A stretch of DNA of 51,270 bases from NCBI GenBank assembly GCA_021852265.1, contig JAJZNV010000006.1, positions 1 through 51,270 on the forward strand. The letters are read 5' to 3'. Below are positions 10,021 to 51,157 of this stretch, one piece after another; position 1 is the stretch's first letter, and each line of letters opens with the position of its first letter. Position numbers and translations under genes: made by a program. The DNA comes from Nanobdellota archaeon. Its GTDB lineage: Archaea; Nanobdellota; Nanobdellia; Parvarchaeales; Parvarchaeaceae. The notes below the pieces were generated by a model, which was not told the origin of the DNA, did not search any database, and saw only the letters and a program-made list of their open reading frames with translations.

Positions 10021-10425
10021 ATGGATAACAAAGCTATACGGCAGGTGATTGAATCAGATCCTTTTCTTAAGTACGTGGGCGTGAAAGTACTCGTGCTCAA
10101 GGAAGGCTATTGTAAGATATCGGTCGATTTCAGAGAGGAACTAACTAGATTCGGAGGCTTGCTAAATGGAGGTGCGATAGCAACACTTGCGGATGCTGCG
10201 GGTGGCTGTTCAGTTCTGACACTAAATGACGGTAGCAATCAGGTGACTGCACAGTTGGATATCTCTTTTCTAAAACCGATAAGGAGCGGGCCGGTAATAG
10301 CAGAGGCAAATGTGATCAAGAAAGGTAAGAGCCTCTCTTTTGCGGATGTCCAGGTATATGATGGAGATGGTGACAAATGCGCAGTCGCAAAGGGAATATG
10401 GTTCTTTGTCGGAGTGAGGACTTAA
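10021..10425 (+). CDS. PaaI-like hotdog-fold thioesterase
   Basis: LLNGGAIATLADAAGGCSVLTL...QLDISFLKPIRSG. Confidence 0.9.
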   Translation: MDNKAIRQVIESDPFLKYVGVKVLVLKEGYCKISVDFREELTRFGGLLNGGAIATLADAAGGCSVLTLNDGSNQVTAQLDISFLKPIRSGPVIAEANVIKKGKSLSFADVQVYDGDGDKCAVAKGIWFFVGVRT

Positions 10426-10485
10426 GCGGCTGATTTTTATCTCTTTATCCCATACAGTTAAATAATAAGAACGAGTACATCTCAA

Positions 10486-11703
10486 GTGGAAAAGTCATTT
10501 TCTGAATCAATAGAACTCGTTAAGAACATTTATAAGTTTTCTTCGGAAGAACTGGAAATCCTTGAAAAGGTTGATGCTGCAGCGGGAGAGCTCGTTGCTT
10601 CTGAGTTCGACCATTACCTGAAGAGAGAAGTGAACACAGACGCCCTTGCTATAGCAAAGAAGCATGGTATCTTAGGGCTTCCCATTGATAAAAAATATGG
10701 AGGTTTGGGTGTAAATCCAATGATAAGTGTGCTTGCCGGTGAAAGATTTGGACAAGTAGGACTGGGCTTTTCCACATTTTTTGGCGCTAATGTAATGCTG
10801 GCAGGCATGGCCGTGCAAAACTGGGGCAGTGACGAGCAGAAAGAGCGCTACCTTAGGCGCCTTGCGGCAGGAGATATTATCATGGCATTCGGATTAACTG
10901 AACCCGACATAGGTAGTGATCCAATGTCACTGAAGACCAGCTACGAAAAGAAAGGCAGTAACTATATACTGAATGGTTCTAAATATTACATCTCCAACGG
11001 CGGAATTGCAAATGCAGTGGTTGTATTCGCACGTTCAAAAACAAATCCCGCTGAAATATCCGCATTCATAGTCGACACCGATAAACCAGGTTTTAAGGTG
11101 GAGATGGAACTAAAAGAAAAGATAGGACTTTTCACCTCCGACACCGGGATGTTAGGATTTCATGACCTGGAGATACCTGAGCAAAATATCCTCGGCAGTC
11201 TCGGAAATGGCATGTTAGTTGCATACTCCTCAATATTATACGGTAGGTTAGGGATATCTTCTGCATGTACCGGCGTGATGGAAGACTGCCTTAACTCAAC
11301 TGTAGCACGGGCTAAGGAGCGTATCCAGTTCGGAAAAGAGATAGGCAAACACCAGCTCGTACAAGAACATATAGCAGAGATTGCACTAAACATCGAGCGG
11401 GCGAGATGGCCTACTTATATCACAGCATTAAGAGCAATAGAATACCTTAAGAGCCCAAGTGAAGATCTAGTTAGGGAGCTAGACCAGAGAAGTGCGATCG
11501 CAAAAAGAATTGCATCGCGGGCAGCCTGGGAATCAGCAGATCATGCGGTGCAGGTATTCGGTGGCTTTGGGTATTCGCTTTTGTCCCCTGTAGGAAGACA
11601 TTATTGTGACACTCGTGTCACAAGAATATTTGAGGGAACGGATGAGATAATGAACCTAAAAATAGCCAGTCATATATTGGGTAAAGGGTTCAGGGCGTTC
11701 TAA
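10486..11703 (+). CDS. acyl-CoA dehydrogenase (GTG start)
   Basis: AFGLTEPDIGSDP, QVFGGFGYS, RIFEGTDEIMNLKIA. Confidence 0.95.
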   Translation: MEKSFSESIELVKNIYKFSSEELEILEKVDAAAGELVASEFDHYLKREVNTDALAIAKKHGILGLPIDKKYGGLGVNPMISVLAGERFGQVGLGFSTFFGANVMLAGMAVQNWGSDEQKERYLRRLAAGDIIMAFGLTEPDIGSDPMSLKTSYEKKGSNYILNGSKYYISNGGIANAVVVFARSKTNPAEISAFIVDTDKPGFKVEMELKEKIGLFTSDTGMLGFHDLEIPEQNILGSLGNGMLVAYSSILYGRLGISSACTGVMEDCLNSTVARAKERIQFGKEIGKHQLVQEHIAEIALNIERARWPTYITALRAIEYLKSPSEDLVRELDQRSAIAKRIASRAAWESADHAVQVFGGFGYSLLSPVGRHYCDTRVTRIFEGTDEIMNLKIASHILGKGFRAF

Positions 11704-11707
11704 GCAT

Positions 11708-12151
11708 ATGCAGATAAATCTAAACGGGACTTTCGATTTAAACGCAGATCTAACAAAAACTTTCGCTTTTCTTACGGATCCTAAAAAATTGAGTACGTGT
11801 ATACAGGAGCTTAAGGAAACTAAATTTATCGACGATCGCAATTTTGAGACCGTCCTTACAATAAGGATAGGTCCCATCCCAGGTAATTTCAGTGCCAAAT
11901 GTAACATAGACCCGACGCCTCCCGACACAATAAAGCTGACAATCGAGGGCTCTGGCACAGGAAGCTCGATGCATCTTGCTTTATCTTTAAAATTAACCAA
12001 AAAGACAGAAAAAATTACCAGCGTTGCATGGAGCGCAAGTACTGAAATTGGAGGTATTGTAAGTGGATTAGGAGAAACTGTGCTACGTGAGTTAAGCAGT
12101 TCTAAGATAGAAGAGATAATAAGTGCAGTGAGAACGAAAGTGCCACAATGA
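11708..12151 (+). CDS. CoxG/SRPBCC-superfamily protein
   Basis: LNGTFDLNADLTKTFAFLTDPKKLSTCIQEL... matches the CoxG-type N-terminal pattern. Confidence 0.75.
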   Translation: MQINLNGTFDLNADLTKTFAFLTDPKKLSTCIQELKETKFIDDRNFETVLTIRIGPIPGNFSAKCNIDPTPPDTIKLTIEGSGTGSSMHLALSLKLTKKTEKITSVAWSASTEIGGIVSGLGETVLRELSSSKIEEIISAVRTKVPQ

Positions 12152-12159
12152 AGATAATG

Positions 12160-13359
12160 TCAGATATAATCTGATTTAACGTTCTCAAGAACTATAGCGA
12201 AACCTTGTCCACCTCCAACACAGAGAGTTGCTACTCCTATTTTTTTGTTTTCATTACTTAGTGTCCTTGCAAGTGTTCCTACGAGTCTCGCTCCGCTCGC
12301 ACCGAGAGGGTGTCCTATTGATATAGCACCGCCGTGGATGTTCACTTTATTAGGGTCCAGTTTAAGCTCTCTCATCGCATACAAAACAACAACTGCAAAA
12401 GCCTCGTTTATCTCCCAATAATCAACGTCTTCGACTCTCAATCCTGCATTTTTTAGGGCTTTTATAGAAGCTGGGACTGGCCCTTTACCCATAACAGATG
12501 GGTCCACTCCTGCCCAGCCCATTGACCTTATCTTTGCCAGCGGAGTCAGCCCATATTTTTTAACCGCATTTCCCGAAGCAAGCATAACCAATGAAGCGCC
12601 GGCGTTTAGCGGAGAAGAATTCCCCACAGTTATTGTGCCGTTCGTCTTAAATGCAGACGGAAGTGCCTTTATCTGTTCTAATGTCGTGTCTTGCCTTATA
12701 CTCTGATCTTTATCTACCACGGTTCTTTTACCCTGAAAATCGACTTCTACCGGCATTATCTCATCATTGAACCATCCAGACTGCTGAGCTTTTGAAGCTA
12801 ACATATGGCTTCTTAATGACAGTTCATCCATCGCATCCTTTGTTATGCTACTCTCCTCTGCTAATTTCTCTGCAGTAAGTCCCATGTTGTACCCTACACC
12901 CATCTGGTATTTTGTATATTCGGGCATTGTGAGAAGTTTGTAATTTGGAATTATAAACGGATTATCGCCTATTGGAAGATGAGTCATATGTTCCATCCCG
13001 CCGGCCAGAACGATCTCGGAATTGCCGCTCATTATTTCCATGGCACCTGTGCTTATGGACATCATTGAGGAAGAACATGCCCTATCGATGCCCATCCCAG
13101 GCACTTCCACAGGTAATCCTGCCAAAAGAACAGGATGCCTTCCACCATACAACCAGTTTTCGCCAGCCTGGAAAGCACAGCCAGTTATTACATCACCTAT
13201 CTCAATCGGATTTATTTTCGTTCTCTGAACCACTTTTTTTATAAGCATAGCGAGGGCTTCATCCATTCTTAATGAATTAAAGACGTCTCTTTCCGGCTCT
13301 TTGGGTCTAGATCTAGAAAAGGCTGTCCTGAGATAATCAACTATGTATGCATTTGCCAT
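12160..13359 (-). CDS. thiolase (acetyl-CoA C-acetyltransferase)
   Basis: IDRACSSSM (active Cys), NEAFAVV, IHGGAISIGHPLGASGARL, CVGGGQGFAIV; start set to MANAYIV, 1 bp after the upstream stop. Confidence 0.94.
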   Translation of the reverse strand: MANAYIVDYLRTAFSRSRPKEPERDVFNSLRMDEALAMLIKKVVQRTKINPIEIGDVITGCAFQAGENWLYGGRHPVLLAGLPVEVPGMGIDRACSSSMMSISTGAMEIMSGNSEIVLAGGMEHMTHLPIGDNPFIIPNYKLLTMPEYTKYQMGVGYNMGLTAEKLAEESSITKDAMDELSLRSHMLASKAQQSGWFNDEIMPVEVDFQGKRTVVDKDQSIRQDTTLEQIKALPSAFKTNGTITVGNSSPLNAGASLVMLASGNAVKKYGLTPLAKIRSMGWAGVDPSVMGKGPVPASIKALKNAGLRVEDVDYWEINEAFAVVVLYAMRELKLDPNKVNIHGGAISIGHPLGASGARLVGTLARTLSNENKKIGVATLCVGGGQGFAIVLENVKSDYI

Positions 13360-13360
13360 A

Positions 13361-15337
13361 TCATTTCCCCTTGAACTCCGGTTTTCTTTTTGAAAGGAAT
13401 GATGAAAGACCCTCCTTAAGATCATCTGTACCGAAGATTATCCCTCCAGCTGTAGACTCAAGATCAAATCCTGCCTCAAGTGGGGTTTCAATTCCTTTGT
13501 TTATCAGGACCTTCGCCAGCATTGCGGATACAGGCGCAGAATTCTCAGAGATCTCCTTGGCGTATTCCAGAGCTGCGGCATCTATATCACTGTCTATTAC
13601 TTTTGAGACTAATCCCTTCTCAAACGCCTCCTTCCCGCTCATCTTCTCTCCGGTAAGTATCAGTCTGGAAGCAATAGACGTCCCGACTAATTTAGAGATG
13701 CGTTGTGAACCTCCCCACAAGGGTATAAGCCCGCGATTTATTTCCGGCAGCCCAAGAAGGGCTCCGCTGGTTGCTAAGCGAATATCACAGGCGAGGGCCA
13801 GCTCAAATCCACCGCCGAGCGCGTAGCCTTCGATTACGGCAATGGTTATCTTTGGAGTCCCAGAAAATTTTTCCATAGTCTCCTGTCCTTTCTTTGAAAA
13901 TTCTATGAATTGCAGTTCATTTTGAAAAAACATTGAAAGATCTGCGCCGGCAGATAAAATTCCACCCGCTCCTCTTATTAGAATAACTCTTGTTTCAGTG
14001 TCAGCTCTAAGAACGGTCATGGCTCGATTTAATTCATCCAAAGTATCTCCATTTATAAGATTTAGCTTTGGCCGGTTTAGCGTTATGCGCATGACTTTTG
14101 GTGCCACCTTCTCGACTAATATAGTTTTAAATTCGGACTTAGTCCCTGCTGTATACTGCCCTGCATCAGTAACAGATAGTCTGCCGTCTACAGCATCACG
14201 CATTTTATTGGCTTTTATGCTAGCGGCGGGCTCAAATACATTTACGTCGAATTTCTTTGCCAGGTTTTCCAGTCTCACCTTCACGTCGGAATTATCAAGT
14301 CCTTTTGCCACAGATATTGGTCCGAATGGCCTGTTTAAGCCAAGCTTTACGGCAGTCTCTATATCATCCGGGCTCGCTACTCCGTTTTCTATCAATTTTA
14401 CAGCCTCATTTATTTCCAGAGCGAATATATCTACTAACTCCAATTTATCGCTCGGCCTTGCCGAATCCAGGATTTTCGGTCTGCCATTCTTCCAATCATA
14501 AAAACCGGCACCGTTCTTTTTGCCGAGGCGGTTATCCTTCACAAGTTCGGCGTATACTTTCGCTTTTGAGTAATCTGGCGACAGCTTATCTGCAAAGTAG
14601 AGCAGCGAGTCATTGACGATGTCTATACCTACAAAATCAAATAACTCATACGGTCCCATCGGCAGTCCCTGTGCCCTTACAAATGCGTCTATCTCCTCTG
14701 GTTTCGCAATTCCTTTATCTACAAAAAGACCGAAGAGAAGGATCTCCGGTGCACTTATCCTATTCACAATGAAACCGGGCGTGTCTTTATTCACTTTTAT
14801 TGGGGTCTTTCCTATTGATTTTATTAATTGCACAACGGAATCAAAAACCTGATCACTAGTCTTCTCCCCCTTTATTACCTCTACAAGCTTAAGTACAACC
14901 GGAGGATTGAAGAAGTGGGTCCCTATAACCCTCTCTGGGTTCTTGGTTTGTGCGGCGATGTCCGTTATTCTTATGTTGGATGTGTTTGAACAGAGTATTG
15001 TATTTTCTCCCGTTAGTTCTCCGAGTTGCTTGAATATTCTTGCTTTCAGGTCAAGTTTTTCTGGTACAGCTTCTATAACAAAACCGACGCCGTCTATTCC
15101 TGCAGACATGTCTGTGTAAGTCTTTATCTTATTAAGGGCATCTTTAGCCTGCTGCGCAGTTATTACATTTTTTGTTGACAATCGCGCCAGACTATCTGAT
15201 ATCTTCTCAACAGCCGCGGTCAGGGCATCCTTGTTTATGTCAATTAGTCCAACCGTGAATCCAGAAAGTGCGAATACTTCGGTTATCTCATGCCCCATTT
15301 CGCCGGCGCCGATTACGGCAATCTTCTTGGTATCCAT
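13361..15337 (-). CDS. 3-hydroxyacyl-CoA dehydrogenase / enoyl-CoA hydratase fusion protein
   Basis: N-terminal Rossmann VIGAGEMGHEI and GFIVNRI; C-terminal crotonase ILIRGAGGILSAGADLSMF and ALGGGFELALACDIRLA. Confidence 0.95.
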   Translation of the reverse strand: MDTKKIAVIGAGEMGHEITEVFALSGFTVGLIDINKDALTAAVEKISDSLARLSTKNVITAQQAKDALNKIKTYTDMSAGIDGVGFVIEAVPEKLDLKARIFKQLGELTGENTILCSNTSNIRITDIAAQTKNPERVIGTHFFNPPVVLKLVEVIKGEKTSDQVFDSVVQLIKSIGKTPIKVNKDTPGFIVNRISAPEILLFGLFVDKGIAKPEEIDAFVRAQGLPMGPYELFDFVGIDIVNDSLLYFADKLSPDYSKAKVYAELVKDNRLGKKNGAGFYDWKNGRPKILDSARPSDKLELVDIFALEINEAVKLIENGVASPDDIETAVKLGLNRPFGPISVAKGLDNSDVKVRLENLAKKFDVNVFEPAASIKANKMRDAVDGRLSVTDAGQYTAGTKSEFKTILVEKVAPKVMRITLNRPKLNLINGDTLDELNRAMTVLRADTETRVILIRGAGGILSAGADLSMFFQNELQFIEFSKKGQETMEKFSGTPKITIAVIEGYALGGGFELALACDIRLATSGALLGLPEINRGLIPLWGGSQRISKLVGTSIASRLILTGEKMSGKEAFEKGLVSKVIDSDIDAAALEYAKEISENSAPVSAMLAKVLINKGIETPLEAGFDLESTAGGIIFGTDDLKEGLSSFLSKRKPEFKGK

Positions 15338-39804: not shown

Positions 39805-41706
39805 TCACATTCTTTCTATAGGTATAAGCCCTAACAGTATCATTGCATTGTAAAGAACTATTCTACACGAATCTATAAGCCAAAGCCTAAATGCCACTTT
39901 TTCTTTCTCTGCTTTCAGAACGGGCGTATTAACGTAGAATGAATTGAACTCCAATGCGAAATCAGATATATAATTGGCCATGCCTGCAAGATCCAGAGAC
40001 TTCGCTGAACGTTCCAGCACATCCGGGAACCCTGCTATACCGAGCAGAATCTTTTTCTCCGGTTCAGTTAAATCACCTACTTCAGATGCTTCTTTAGCCA
40101 GGTTCGTCTCAGCAGCCTTTTTTAGTATGCTGCTTATCCTTGCATACGTATATATCAGATACGCTGCACTTTTTTCCTCGAGTTTAAGAGCTTTGTCTAT
40201 ATCAAACACTATTACGTTCTTTGGATCTGCCCTAACCATCTCATAACGCAGTGTCGAAACGGCAAGTTTTTCGGCTATATCATGGCATTCCTTTTCGTCC
40301 AACTTGGCGTTTTTGTTCTTAGTCTGCTCAAACAGTATCCTATGAAGCTGATCCAAAAAATCATCCGCATTTATGTATATCCCTTTCCTTCCACTCATCT
40401 GAAAGACTTCCTTGTCTTCCTGCTCTTCGATGCCTAGTTTTTGCGCTGTATTCTTTGATAGGGCGACGACCTCGTAACCGTAGTGCACATATCTCAGGTC
40501 CTTACCTTTACCAAGTTTCGCTATCGCTTCGGTTACCACATTCTGCTCATAGCTCTGCCGTATATCTATGACGTTTATAGAAGTCTTGACGCCATTGAAA
40601 ATAGGGTGTTTAGATTCCCCCTCCTTGTCTAGCGTAGTGGTCCACAGATCCTGTCCATTTTTTTGTACTTCGAATTTCTTGTACCTAAAGTCGCTGTCTA
40701 ACAGTCCATGTTTCCACATTGCATACGCAATGTCCTTTCCGGCGTATACCACAGTCCCATCAGAACGCACGAGTATCTTATCATCATTATTGTTTGACGA
40801 GTTAAGTCCGAACGTCCAGCAGCCCTTTTTTTTACCATCGGTTTCGAGGCGCACTGCCCCTATCTCTTTTAACTGCCTAAATGCTGTGGCCCAAAACTTA
40901 TACGCAAGAATGTGTGATTCGTAGTTTACAAGGTTATAAAACACGTTTAGCCTATCAAGAGTCTGAAGCTGCGCCTTGAGCACCTCAAGGACCATCTTTC
41001 TTGCATAATGAGCGATATCATTTTCTCCATGTTCTATTGCTTTAAGGACTTCACTCCGTTTCTCCAGCAGTGTAGGATCTTCCTTGTACAGGCTATTTAC
41101 CTTCACATACACTTCATCACCGAGATAATGATCAAACTTTACACCATCCTTTCTCTCCGGGAACCCTAAATATTTCACACCGACGATATTGTCCGCCACC
41201 TGCGCACCCGTATCATCTATGTAATTAGTAACGGTAACATCATAGCCGACGAACCTCAAAAGGCGGGCAAGTGCATCTCCTATAGACGAATTTCTGACGT
41301 GCCCGATGTGCAAAGCTTTGTTTGGGTTTACGCTGGTGTGCTCGATCATTATTCTCTCTCCATTTCCTACCAAGGTTCTGCCATACTCTTTGTCGAGCAT
41401 AGAGCCCAGCTCTTTTGCTATATACTCATAATTATACCAACAATTCACATAGCCGTTTAAGACGCTTGCCTTCTTAATGAAAGGACATTTTTCCAGCTTA
41501 TTTTTTATCTCATTGGCAACCGTTTCTAGGTTTTTACCGCTCTTTTTGCTTTCCCTTAATGCAAGAGTTATTGCGAAATCTCCTTCATAGCCAGGCAGCT
41601 GTTTCTTAAAATTTAATTTTACGTCCTCTACGCTTTGAAGGGACAGCCTCTCCATTATATCTTCAAAAATCCTGCGCATTGGGTTTTTATTGAATCCTAC
41701 TTGCAT
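39805..41706 (-). CDS. argS: arginyl-tRNA synthetase
   Basis: VNPNKALHIGHVRNSSIGDALARLLRFVGYDVTVTNYIDDTGAQVAD and C-terminal anticodon-binding region. Confidence 0.96.
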   Translation of the reverse strand: MQVGFNKNPMRRIFEDIMERLSLQSVEDVKLNFKKQLPGYEGDFAITLALRESKKSGKNLETVANEIKNKLEKCPFIKKASVLNGYVNCWYNYEYIAKELGSMLDKEYGRTLVGNGERIMIEHTSVNPNKALHIGHVRNSSIGDALARLLRFVGYDVTVTNYIDDTGAQVADNIVGVKYLGFPERKDGVKFDHYLGDEVYVKVNSLYKEDPTLLEKRSEVLKAIEHGENDIAHYARKMVLEVLKAQLQTLDRLNVFYNLVNYESHILAYKFWATAFRQLKEIGAVRLETDGKKKGCWTFGLNSSNNNDDKILVRSDGTVVYAGKDIAYAMWKHGLLDSDFRYKKFEVQKNGQDLWTTTLDKEGESKHPIFNGVKTSINVIDIRQSYEQNVVTEAIAKLGKGKDLRYVHYGYEVVALSKNTAQKLGIEEQEDKEVFQMSGRKGIYINADDFLDQLHRILFEQTKNKNAKLDEKECHDIAEKLAVSTLRYEMVRADPKNVIVFDIDKALKLEEKSAAYLIYTYARISSILKKAAETNLAKEASEVGDLTEPEKKILLGIAGFPDVLERSAKSLDLAGMANYISDFALEFNSFYVNTPVLKAEKEKVAFRLWLIDSCRIVLYNAMILLGLIPIERM

Positions 41707-41712
41707 AAATCA

Positions 41713-42849
41713 TCATTCCCTGCGCAGTGCACCTGTCATACAGTGCACGCCTCCGTATCCCGCGAGTAATTCATTCACTTCTATCGAAAGCACTTCTACG
41801 CCTGCCGCTTCGTATCTTTTTGCCGCGACGCCGAGTTTATCATTTGTAGGCATTAATATCTTGTTCTCTTTCAGGGCAAGAAAATTTGTTGAAAACCTTT
41901 CCTTCTCTAAGTCTACCTCAAGCACATCAAAACCATTTGCTTTTAGGAAATCAAAAAACTTTGTACTAGTCGTCTTTCTGTATGATTTACCGCCATTGAC
42001 ATAAACAGTGCATTCAGCAGTCCTTAATATCTTCTTATCTCCAACCACAAGATTCGGACCGAGTATATTAAAGTAAGTATCGAGATGCATCGTTTCCTGG
42101 TTTGCGGGCTGAGTTACAACTGCGATTGTTTCGTAGCCGAGCGCTCCGCTTTCCAATAGTTCACTCACACTCTCTTGAGTGTTCCTATAACCGTGACCCA
42201 GAAATGCGATATTGCCGGCTGGAAGAAAGTCTCCTCCTTCCATCGGATTTTTCATGATATGAACCGGTTTAATCCCGAGCGTTGAAAACCCCATTTCTGT
42301 TAATTCTGTTTCACCCATCCTAGCCGGCATTTTCAGGCTTCCTAGCACCAGCCCCTTGTCAGTTACAAACTGCTGGTCCCGCATATAAAACAGGTTTCCG
42401 AAGGGATGCACGTGCAGGAGAGCACTTCTCGCCCTAAAATCCTTCTCTTCTGTTATGCTTAAGAATTCTGGTCTTAACACTGCCATCATCCAAAGGGTAT
42501 CCAGAGGATAGCCGCTTATGACAGTACGTATATTTTTAGACCACTTTGGGTCTGCGGCATATCGTGATTTTTTGTATAAGGATTCTATTTTGTCTTGGAT
42601 ATAATTTCTAAATCCTGTATTTTCTTTTACAAGATCGCTTAATTCATACACTTTAACTCCCTCCTTTCGCAGAGTGTCTTTTAGTAGTAGGTGTTCTTCT
42701 TGGGCTTTGCTTAATTTTATAACGTCATCATAAAGATTTTCTATGGGAGATATCTGAGCGTATGCAACCTCTGATGAGGGAGTATAGAGAACTGCATGCG
42801 TAAGCCGGGCCCATTCAGCAACCTGCTGGGCTATCACTTTTTCTGCCAT
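41713..42849 (-). CDS. arginine deiminase-family protein
   Basis: NLFYMRDQQF, NPMEGGDFLPAGN, MHLDTYFNIL, AGYGGVHCMTGALRRE (catalytic Cys). Confidence 0.88.
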   Translation of the reverse strand: MAEKVIAQQVAEWARLTHAVLYTPSSEVAYAQISPIENLYDDVIKLSKAQEEHLLLKDTLRKEGVKVYELSDLVKENTGFRNYIQDKIESLYKKSRYAADPKWSKNIRTVISGYPLDTLWMMAVLRPEFLSITEEKDFRARSALLHVHPFGNLFYMRDQQFVTDKGLVLGSLKMPARMGETELTEMGFSTLGIKPVHIMKNPMEGGDFLPAGNIAFLGHGYRNTQESVSELLESGALGYETIAVVTQPANQETMHLDTYFNILGPNLVVGDKKILRTAECTVYVNGGKSYRKTTSTKFFDFLKANGFDVLEVDLEKERFSTNFLALKENKILMPTNDKLGVAAKRYEAAGVEVLSIEVNELLAGYGGVHCMTGALRRE

Positions 42850-48499: not shown

Positions 48500-48811
48500 T
48501 TATTGCAGGTTTACCAGCAAGTCTTCCCCTTCTACTTTGACTTCAAAGGTCTTGAGAGGTGTTTTTGCAGGGCCCTCAACAACACTTCCTGTTTTAATAT
48601 CGAATTTTGAACCATGCCAAGGACATGTAATGATATTGTCACTAAGCTTACCATTTGAAAGCGGACCGCCGACATGCGTGCATTTCTCATCTGTCGCATA
48701 GAACTTGCCCCCGAAACGAGATATCAAAATTGTCTTTCCAGAGATCTGAAAACTCTTCATTTGCTTATCTTTAATATCCGATACTTTTCCAACCTTTACA
48801 AAATTTGCCAT
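48500..48811 (-). CDS. Rieske-type [2Fe-2S] ferredoxin
   Basis: KCTHVGGPLSNGKLSDNIITCPWHGSKFDIKTG. Confidence 0.95.
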   Translation of the reverse strand: MANFVKVGKVSDIKDKQMKSFQISGKTILISRFGGKFYATDEKCTHVGGPLSNGKLSDNIITCPWHGSKFDIKTGSVVEGPAKTPLKTFEVKVEGEDLLVNLQ

Positions 48812-49513: not shown

Positions 49514-49936
49514 ATGGCAAAAGAATATAAAAATCCTTCCGTTGCTGCAGACGGAATAATAATAAAAGACAAGAAGATTCTGTTAGTAAGGAGGGGACAC
49601 GACCCCTATGCAGGCAGCTGGGCATTACCAGGCGGTTTTGTCAACTACGGAGAAAGAACGGAGGATGCCGTCGTAAGAGAAGTCAGGGAAGAAACCACGC
49701 TTGAAACTGTGGTTGATGATCTGGTCGGCGTTTATTCAGATCCCCACAGAGACCCCAGAGGACATGTCATATCCATAACTTATCTATTAAAGAACCCAAT
49801 TGGAGAACCACACGGCTCCGATGATGCCAAGGAAGCGCGATGGTGGGATATAGACTCGCTGCCGTCACTTGCATTCGACCACGCTAAAATAATAGCAGAG
49901 GGCCTTCGGCTGTATAAGCAAAAAAAATTAGCGTAA
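49514..49936 (+). CDS. NUDIX hydrolase
   Basis: Nudix box GGFVNYGERTEDAVVREVREETTLET. Confidence 0.94.
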   Translation: MAKEYKNPSVAADGIIIKDKKILLVRRGHDPYAGSWALPGGFVNYGERTEDAVVREVREETTLETVVDDLVGVYSDPHRDPRGHVISITYLLKNPIGEPHGSDDAKEARWWDIDSLPSLAFDHAKIIAEGLRLYKQKKLA

Positions 49937-49940
49937 TGGT

Positions 49941-50258
49941 ATGCTCCTAGCCAGATTTAAGGTGGCTGAGAGAAGCATGGAACCTTCCCTTAGTGCAGGG
50001 GATTTTGTCATAGTCAGCGGCCTGCCATATCTCTTTAAGGAGCCCAAAAAAGGCGATATCATTGTTGCACTCGTAGACGACAGGTACCTAATTAAACGAA
50101 TAAAAAAGACCGTTGGTGGCCGTTATTTTATTATGGGTGACAACAAAAAATACAGTGTTGACAGCAGAAGTTTCGGACCGGTATCACGCAAACAGCTCGT
50201 CGGAAAGGTCATAAAATGTATAAAAAAGGCACAGAAGGTAGTTCGAGAGAGAAGATAA
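49941..50258 (+). CDS. sodX: soluble S26-family peptidase, nickel-SOD maturation protease-like
   Basis: VAERSMEPSLSAGDFVIV (Ser), RYLIKRIKK (Lys), IMGDNKKYSVDSRSFGPVSRKQLVGKV; no TM segment; NiSOD gene nearby. Confidence 0.85.
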   Translation: MLLARFKVAERSMEPSLSAGDFVIVSGLPYLFKEPKKGDIIVALVDDRYLIKRIKKTVGGRYFIMGDNKKYSVDSRSFGPVSRKQLVGKVIKCIKKAQKVVRERR

Positions 50259-50291
50259 TGCTCGGAATACAATTTCGGCCATTAGCCGTTC

Positions 50292-50387
50292 TTAACTATG
50301 GGCTGCTAACCAATTGTTTCTCAAAACGAAGGCTAGCAACACGACCAGATAAGCTATTACCGCTCCCGCGATAATTGTTGTGTCCAT
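50292..50387 (-). CDS. 31-aa single-TM microprotein MDTTIIAGAVIAYLVVLLAFVLRNNWLAAHS
   Basis: manual translation; GGAGGAGG just upstream of the ATG; AT-rich TATA-like element about 40-50 bp upstream; below the ORF-track length cutoff. Confidence 0.6.
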   Translation of the reverse strand: MDTTIIAGAVIAYLVVLLAFVLRNNWLAAHS

Positions 50388-50425
50388 ATTCCTCCTCCAT
50401 CATAGTATTATATAGGACGAACTTG

Positions 50426-50436
50426 AATATAAATTT
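50426..50436 (-). promoter_or_regulatory. putative archaeal TATA box for the 31-aa microprotein
   Basis: minus-strand AAATTTATATT; predicted TSS about 25 nt downstream leaves a short leader containing GGAGGAGG. Confidence 0.5.
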
Positions 50437-50607
50437 TTCTAAAGCGGTTATATCTGTATTGAGGGGCTTTCTACAGGCTTTACGTCGCCATAAATGGAAA
50501 TTCAATAAAATAGCATTTTGATATTAGTAGTGTTCTTTTCTCTATAAAATTCCCATTATGGTTAGTATGAGAGGATAAAATCATTTTTGGTTCTAAAATC
50601 CCACCAA

Positions 50608-51126
50608 TTAAGCTTTTGGCACCACTGTATCATGTTCTGTTGGGTATGGTGCTTTAACGTGCGAAGTCTCTATTCCTTTCGTTTTCCAGAATATTTCCGC
50701 AAATTTATTGACGTTCTCTAAGAGTTCTTCTGCAGATTTAATATCTGTATCCTGTTTGGACTTTGATCCCGCCTTCATTATTTTCCAGACAATATCATGC
50801 AGCTCCGGAAACTTCTGTAAATGATCTGGCTTAAAATAGTCGCCCCAAATTATCCTGATCTCATGTTTGCACAGTTCGGCGTGCTTTTCCTTTACATCCG
50901 TATATCTTGCCATCTTATGGTGATAATCATTTTTATCTTCTGGTTTCATACTTTCTGAAGGGACCTTCAACTGGCTTATAAGCATATCCATACGAATCAC
51001 GGTATGAGCCGACAACTGCGCAAGATGTGGATCGTATATGCCGCAAGGTATATCACAATGAGCATAAACTATCTTTGCAGGAAATATTTTATCCAAAATT
51101 TGGAAAACTGACTTTAAAACTAACAT
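50608..51126 (-). CDS. sodN: nickel-dependent superoxide dismutase precursor (22-aa propeptide, mature N-terminus His-Cys)
   Basis: nickel hook HCDIPCGIYDP after MLVLKSVFQILDKIFPAKIVYA; HAELCKHEIRIIWGDYFKPDHLQKFPELHDIVWKIMKA matches the NiSOD helical core. Confidence 0.96.
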   Translation of the reverse strand: MLVLKSVFQILDKIFPAKIVYAHCDIPCGIYDPHLAQLSAHTVIRMDMLISQLKVPSESMKPEDKNDYHHKMARYTDVKEKHAELCKHEIRIIWGDYFKPDHLQKFPELHDIVWKIMKAGSKSKQDTDIKSAEELLENVNKFAEIFWKTKGIETSHVKAPYPTEHDTVVPKA

Positions 51127-51145: not shown

Positions 51146-51157
51146 GATTTATAAATT
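51146..51157 (-). promoter_or_regulatory. putative TATA box of the NiSOD gene
   Basis: minus-strand GCGCAAAATTTATAAATC about 25-35 bp upstream of the ATG. Confidence 0.6.

Follow-up and report, generated by a model that had tools for sequence, protein, structure and literature searches.

A nickel superoxide dismutase and its probable maturation protease in a Parvarchaeum-like DPANN archaeon

The sodN-sodX locus

The window, 51,270 nucleotides of DNA, is contig 17 of a 776.5-kb, 88% complete genome. Its host is a Parvarchaeum-like DPANN archaeon. One end of the contig carries sodN, which encodes the precursor of a nickel superoxide dismutase (NiSOD), and sodX, which encodes a soluble S26-type peptidase. 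Genes for TyrRS and Nth (both forward) are followed by a Rieske ferredoxin gene (reverse), a TPR-Nudix-sodX run (all forward, closed by sodX) and finally sodN (reverse), separated from the contig end by 144 bp. The sodN and sodX genes converge across a gap of 349 bp, reported as 350 bp in a preliminary description of this DNA, and therefore cannot share a transcript. The main features are these:

48500..48811, minus strand: Rieske [2Fe-2S] ferredoxin gene, a recurrent neighbour of the cassette (PF00355, 80.3 bits)
49514..49936, plus strand: Nudix hydrolase gene, 4 bp upstream of sodX (PF00293, 81 bits)
49941..50258, plus strand: sodX, predicted soluble S26-type NiSOD maturation protease of 105 amino acids (PF10502, TIGR02227, TIGR02754)
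49974..49976, plus strand: codon of SodX Ser12, the presumed nucleophile (Ser in 112 of 112 SodX sequences)
50094..50096, plus strand: codon of SodX Lys52, the presumed general base (Lys in 113 of 113 SodX sequences)
50608..51126, minus strand: sodN, nickel superoxide dismutase precursor of 172 amino acids (PF09055, E 4.2e-45; TIGR02753)
50611..50676, minus strand: C-terminal extension of SodN, GIETSHVKAPYPTEHDTVVPKA, about 22 residues, a beta-hairpin in the model
51028..51060, minus strand: nickel hook HCDIPCGIYDP, directly after the propeptide (alignment conservation)
51061..51126, minus strand: SodN propeptide, MLVLKSVFQILDKIFPAKIVYA, 22 residues ending in V-Y-A ahead of His1 (read from the sequence)
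51148..51155, minus strand: TATA-like box about 26 nt before the sodN ATG (read from the sequence)

Profile searches place SodN firmly within the NiSOD family, with 174.7 bits against TIGR02753 (E 1.3e-51, cut-off 90) and 153.8 bits against PF09055 (cut-off 25), the Sod_Ni search that the preliminary description had named as a check. The propeptide and hook that it had reported are also present, and the hook carries the NiSOD pattern His1-Cys2-Asp3-x-Pro5-Cys6-x-x-Tyr9. Among 117 aligned NiSOD rows, H1 is kept in 116, while C2, D3, P5, C6, Y9, D10 and P11 are kept in every one. Conservation extends into the propeptide, where position -1 is Ala in 113 of 114 sodN loci and position -3 is Ala or Val in 109 of the 114.

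An AlphaFold model of SodN (pLDDT 91.7) has the helical-bundle subunit fold. Streptomyces NiSOD takes all of the top 16 places among its fold matches in the PDB (TM 0.89-0.94 by target length) and is likewise the only PDB relative found by sequence (E about 1e-25). The C-terminal extension is predicted to form strands at residues 154-158 and 166-170. A comparable tail is present in every Parvarchaeum and Micrarchaeota NiSOD row, in a scoring that leaves out many Thermoplasmatota and Sulfurovum rows, where the landmark pattern failed. Upstream of the gene, the TATA-like box may be the promoter of a leaderless sodN transcript.

Further genomes of this archaeal genus have the Nth, Rieske, TyrRS, HAD and Nudix genes in corresponding positions. 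This synteny with sister genomes rules out a bacterial chimeric contig; the contig is truly archaeal, and the pair lies in an archaeal genome, as the preliminary description had held. In the relatives, sodN and sodX are found on one strand. The order in G012 and G024 is sodN, Nudix, sodX and Rieske, with Nth pointing towards them, and in G015 it is sodN, Nudix and sodX up to the contig end, so that in all three genomes a Nudix counterpart lies between sodN and sodX. G004 has Nth facing Rieske, sodX and sodN, which all point the other way, and no Nudix gene; Nudix is part of the cassette in only some of the genus. If the Nudix-sodX block were flipped between Rieske and sodN, the G012 order would become that of the window, and with such a local inversion the SodX of the window would correspond in position to the SodX of its relatives. 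Its identity to these counterparts is 39-54%, and that of SodN is 59-76%.

Several other genes are of note. The Nudix gene of G024 (L042, 8520-8863) is split over reading frames and is either a decaying gene or an assembly error; the gene is whole in G012, G015 and G019. Elsewhere in the window, positions 10021-15337 encode a hotdog-fold thioesterase, an acyl-CoA dehydrogenase and a fused 3-hydroxyacyl-CoA dehydrogenase/enoyl-CoA hydratase, which are parts of fatty-acid beta-oxidation in a genome of less than 0.8 Mb. An arginine deiminase family gene adjoins an arginyl-tRNA synthetase gene at 39805-42849.

Superoxide dismutase types in the genus and beyond

NiSOD and SodX occur together in nine of 28 sampled genomes of the genus (G000, G004, G012, G014, G015, G019, G023, G024 and G027). 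Fe/Mn-SOD is present in exactly the remaining 19, with no overlap and no genome without either. Many of the genomes used are incomplete MAGs, which weakens single absences but not the whole pattern. The association has a raw Fisher value of 1.4e-7 that ignores kinship, and a kinship-corrected test has only two to three independent pairs, too few for significance. On an RpoB tree the SOD label needs three changes, two of them forced by well-supported branches, and G014 (Ni) and G021 (Fe/Mn) are sisters with 100/100 support. About one third of the species of the genus have NiSOD without Fe/Mn-SOD, and close relatives that differ in SOD type, such as G014 and G021, let the drivers of metal choice be asked. 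This split between Ni and Fe/Mn across the genus, in which the species tree places about three switches, may be new.

Similar exclusion is seen outside the genus, where Fe/Mn-SOD was found in none of 39 other NiSOD-bearing genomes of archaea and bacteria. Among 295 Micrarchaeota genomes searched, NiSOD is present in 52 and Fe/Mn-SOD in 166. Fe/Mn-SOD thus accompanies NiSOD in one of 52 genomes, compared with 165 of the 243 that lack NiSOD (raw Fisher 1.7e-20, ignoring kinship). The one exception, G306, is the sole genome seen with both types, and by these profiles 78 of the 295 have neither, owing to incompleteness or to another defence. NiSOD was also found in 109 of 390 Thermoplasmatota genomes searched.

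The Rieske ferredoxin gene follows NiSOD loosely and may be functionally linked to it. It is present in seven of the nine NiSOD genomes (the window genome, G004, G012, G014, G023, G024 and G027), often beside the cassette, and in one of the 19 Fe/Mn-SOD genomes (Fisher p 2e-4, uncorrected for kinship). That single genome is G021, whose sister carries NiSOD. The Rieske gene of G014 and of G021 has no sodN beside it; close to it lie genes that in G012 and G015 border the sodN cassette. This placement would fit a cassette that was lost or moved away from an older site shared by sodN and Rieske.

A tentative reading of these patterns is that superoxide dismutase is a swappable module in the genus. 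The nickel set (sodN-sodX, often with the Nudix and Rieske ferredoxin genes) and Fe/Mn-SOD would have been exchanged at least two and probably three times, one always taking the place of the other. The Rieske ferredoxin would be a functional partner of NiSOD, and the swaps would track the supply of metal or exchange with Micrarchaeota and Thermoplasmatota living alongside. Taken whole, we consider this scheme possible though rather doubtful. The pattern around the locus offers a natural experiment in SOD replacement.

The SodX peptidase

SodX matches PF10502 with 74 bits. Against TIGR02754, the profile of NiSOD maturation proteases, it scores 63.2 bits, which is 0.05 bit below the curated cut-off of 63.25, so that the TIGRFAM search proposed in the preliminary description fell just short of its threshold. 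The eight counterparts in the genus all exceed it (64-86 bits). SodX scores higher still against TIGR02227, signal peptidase I (74.8 bits, cut-off 47), and its identity therefore cannot depend on a profile alone.

Besides Ser12 and Lys52, SodX carries the motif block GDNKKYSVDSRSFGPV. Its predicted structure (pLDDT 91.6) matches SipA, LepB and LexA-fold Ser/Lys peptidases, and a search for a membrane anchor revealed no transmembrane-like stretch (best 19-residue mean hydropathy 0.89). Near sodN there is thus an S26-type Ser/Lys dyad in a soluble protein, in agreement with the preliminary description.

Type I signal peptidases are membrane-anchored enzymes of general export, expected throughout a lineage. 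The peptidase might be such a general, bacterial-type enzyme that lies near sodN by chance, with the propeptide serving as a secretion signal; the TIGR02227 score would agree with this, and the A/V-x-A cut motif is indeed that of signal peptidases. However, SodX has no anchor and is absent from the Fe/Mn-SOD genomes of the genus. PF10502 had no match in these 19 genomes, which must export proteins too, and TIGR02754 matches of at least 62 bits fall in exactly the nine NiSOD genomes of the 28, with one further match of 23 bits in G011. Moreover, the charges of D12, K13 and K18 break the hydrophobic part of the propeptide, and a SodX homologue adjoins sodN across phyla, in nearly all of some 118 archaeal and bacterial sodN loci. 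We consider a general signal peptidase very unlikely.

The usual arrangement, from Sulfurovum to Thermoplasmata, has sodX next downstream of sodN on the same strand, often overlapping it. Exceptions are the convergent pair of the window, two divergent pairs in Thaumarchaeota, a few loci with sodX upstream, G019, where the two genes are on different contigs, and a single locus lying at the edge of a contig. Distances among SodN and among SodX sequences are correlated (r 0.75 for 113 pairs, with 0 of 2000 permutations as high), and shared ancestry explains part of this. Because SodX perfectly follows SodN within the genus, it looks dedicated to NiSOD. Chance is excluded by the E-values, together with the Ala at position -1 of nearly all propeptides and the invariant Ser and Lys of SodX. 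This large set of sodN-sodX loci gives a clear view of a dedicated protease and its cut site.

Origin, proposed maturation and known systems

A NiSOD scan returned 47 loci, 32 of them from archaeal records. All NiSODs in the scan that are at least 57% identical to the window protein are archaeal, and the best bacterial sequences reach 56%. The closest named relatives by NiSOD are 'Nanoarchaeota archaeon YP1.bin68' (76%) and 'Candidatus Parvarchaeota archaeon clean1593' (74%). In a tree of 117 NiSOD sequences, 30 of 39 Thermoplasmatota rows form a separate clade. The window SodN falls in a group of poor resolution, alongside sequences from Micrarchaeota and other DPANN archaea and from some of the Thermoplasmata and bacteria. 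Because bacterial sequences lie inside this mixed group, the tree shows an old exchange between domains at some time, in one direction or the other.

The same tree splits the genus, with G012 falling among Micrarchaeota, and an AU test does not reject a single genus clade (p 0.217; 0.41 without G012). We therefore claim neither one NiSOD origin in the genus nor several. The NiSOD of G012 (contig C6, L225, 6487-7005) has neighbours that match those of close relatives of the window, and it may be a Micrarchaeota allele that replaced an earlier one in place.

Three further observations concern individual loci and carriers. Two loci from another family of the same class (L006 in G032 and L011 in G045) hold NiSOD-SodX pairs on long branches. 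The NiSOD of 'bacterium DX1.bin10' (L037) is nearly identical to that of a Thermoplasmata locus (L038) and probably comes from a misnamed or misbinned contig. Carriage by phages or plasmids was rejected, as zero phage records matched and the plasmid matches were two distant records only.

The preliminary description had reasoned that NiSOD is mainly bacterial, and hence that the pair implies inter-domain transfer. This argument fails, since NiSOD is widespread in Micrarchaeota and Thermoplasmatota, the nearest proteins are archaeal, and archaeal NiSOD has been published (PMC10783094, PMC9287336). The phylogeny that it had asked for speaks against recent bacterial transfer into the window genome and for the old cross-domain exchange. 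Had the window archaeon recently received the pair straight from a bacterium, this would agree with the tree, where the bacterial NiSODs of Sulfurovum, Aquificota and Patescibacteria are interspersed with archaeal ones, and with the 56% identity of the top bacterial matches. Nevertheless, the nearest rows belong to the same genus and then to Micrarchaeota and other archaea, where NiSOD is widespread, and the locus is syntenic in sister genomes, which makes such a transfer highly improbable. An assembly or binning artefact, with the NiSOD end of the contig derived from another organism, is barely credible: sodN does lie at the extreme contig end and the G012 NiSOD does cluster with Micrarchaeota, but nine genomes of the genus have NiSOD, in several cases with TyrRS, Nth, Rieske and Nudix again as neighbours, the contig-internal Nudix and sodX genes are part of the same cassette, and a single genus clade is not rejected.

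We conclude that sodN and sodX of the window very probably encode a NiSOD and the protease that matures it, functioning in this DPANN archaeon like known pairs. Direct support comes from homology, the preserved ligand and catalytic residues, the predicted folds, synteny, the co-distribution of SodN and SodX, and the exclusion of Fe/Mn-SOD. On the strength of family matches, folds, conserved residues and co-distribution, the preliminary assignment of a NiSOD with a dedicated SodX-type protease is very probably right.

According to work cited in PMC8346466, SodX activates NiSOD through preprotein cleavage. By analogy with the Streptomyces and cyanobacterial enzymes, on which the steps beyond the sequence evidence are modelled, SodN would be produced as an inactive precursor. 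SodX, as a soluble, signal-peptidase-like Ser/Lys protease without an anchor, would cleave after V-Y-A and free His1, Cys2 and Cys6 for nickel binding. The mature helical subunit would then dismute superoxide in the place of the Fe/Mn-SOD used by most of the genus. NiSOD is likewise predicted to be a cytoplasmic enzyme and, of the two types searched (NiSOD and Fe/Mn-SOD), the sole SOD present, and sodN and sodX would be expressed as two separate units following the local inversion.

SodN had not been detected in archaea as of 2009 (PMC2667541). NiSOD has since been reported in Lutacidiplasmatales (PMC9287336) and, in PMC10783094, in marine group II as well as sporadically in other archaea, DPANN among them; the marine group II lineages were found there to carry a single SOD type each. 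Of the genome surveys, one attributes Mn-SOD to Parvarchaeota (PMC5864196) and another sodA to all Parvarchaeales genera (PMC10134863), both without the word nickel in the main text, and a third reports sodA and mentions nickel only in transport (PMC7779479). In the literature searched, mostly outside subscription journals, we found no description of NiSOD in the genus or in Micrarchaeota. Archaeal NiSOD is nonetheless already known, and the window pair joins known archaeal and bacterial pairs.

The NiSOD of Streptomyces is a hexamer. The window protein shares with it (PDB 1t6u, 1q0d, 3g4x) the hook HCDxPCGxYDP, an N-terminal propeptide and, in the model, the helical-bundle fold at 34-37% identity. 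It differs in having some 13 additional residues within the first half of the core, and in the C-terminal beta-hairpin, which is absent from Streptomyces. NiSODs of Thermoplasmatota, which include marine group II and Lutacidiplasmatales, are also archaeal and have sodX beside sodN in sampled loci, but five aligned rows of their separate clade are only 33-35% identical to the window protein. SodX resembles the TIGR02754 proteases in size, Ser/Lys dyad, GDNxxxSxDSRxFG block and linkage to sodN, and differs in its score just under the cut-off. The Micrarchaeota NiSODs have 55-68% identity to the window SodN and the same C-terminal tail. Their pairs lie on one strand, with sodX abutting or overlapping sodN and no Nudix gene between, whereas the window pair is convergent.
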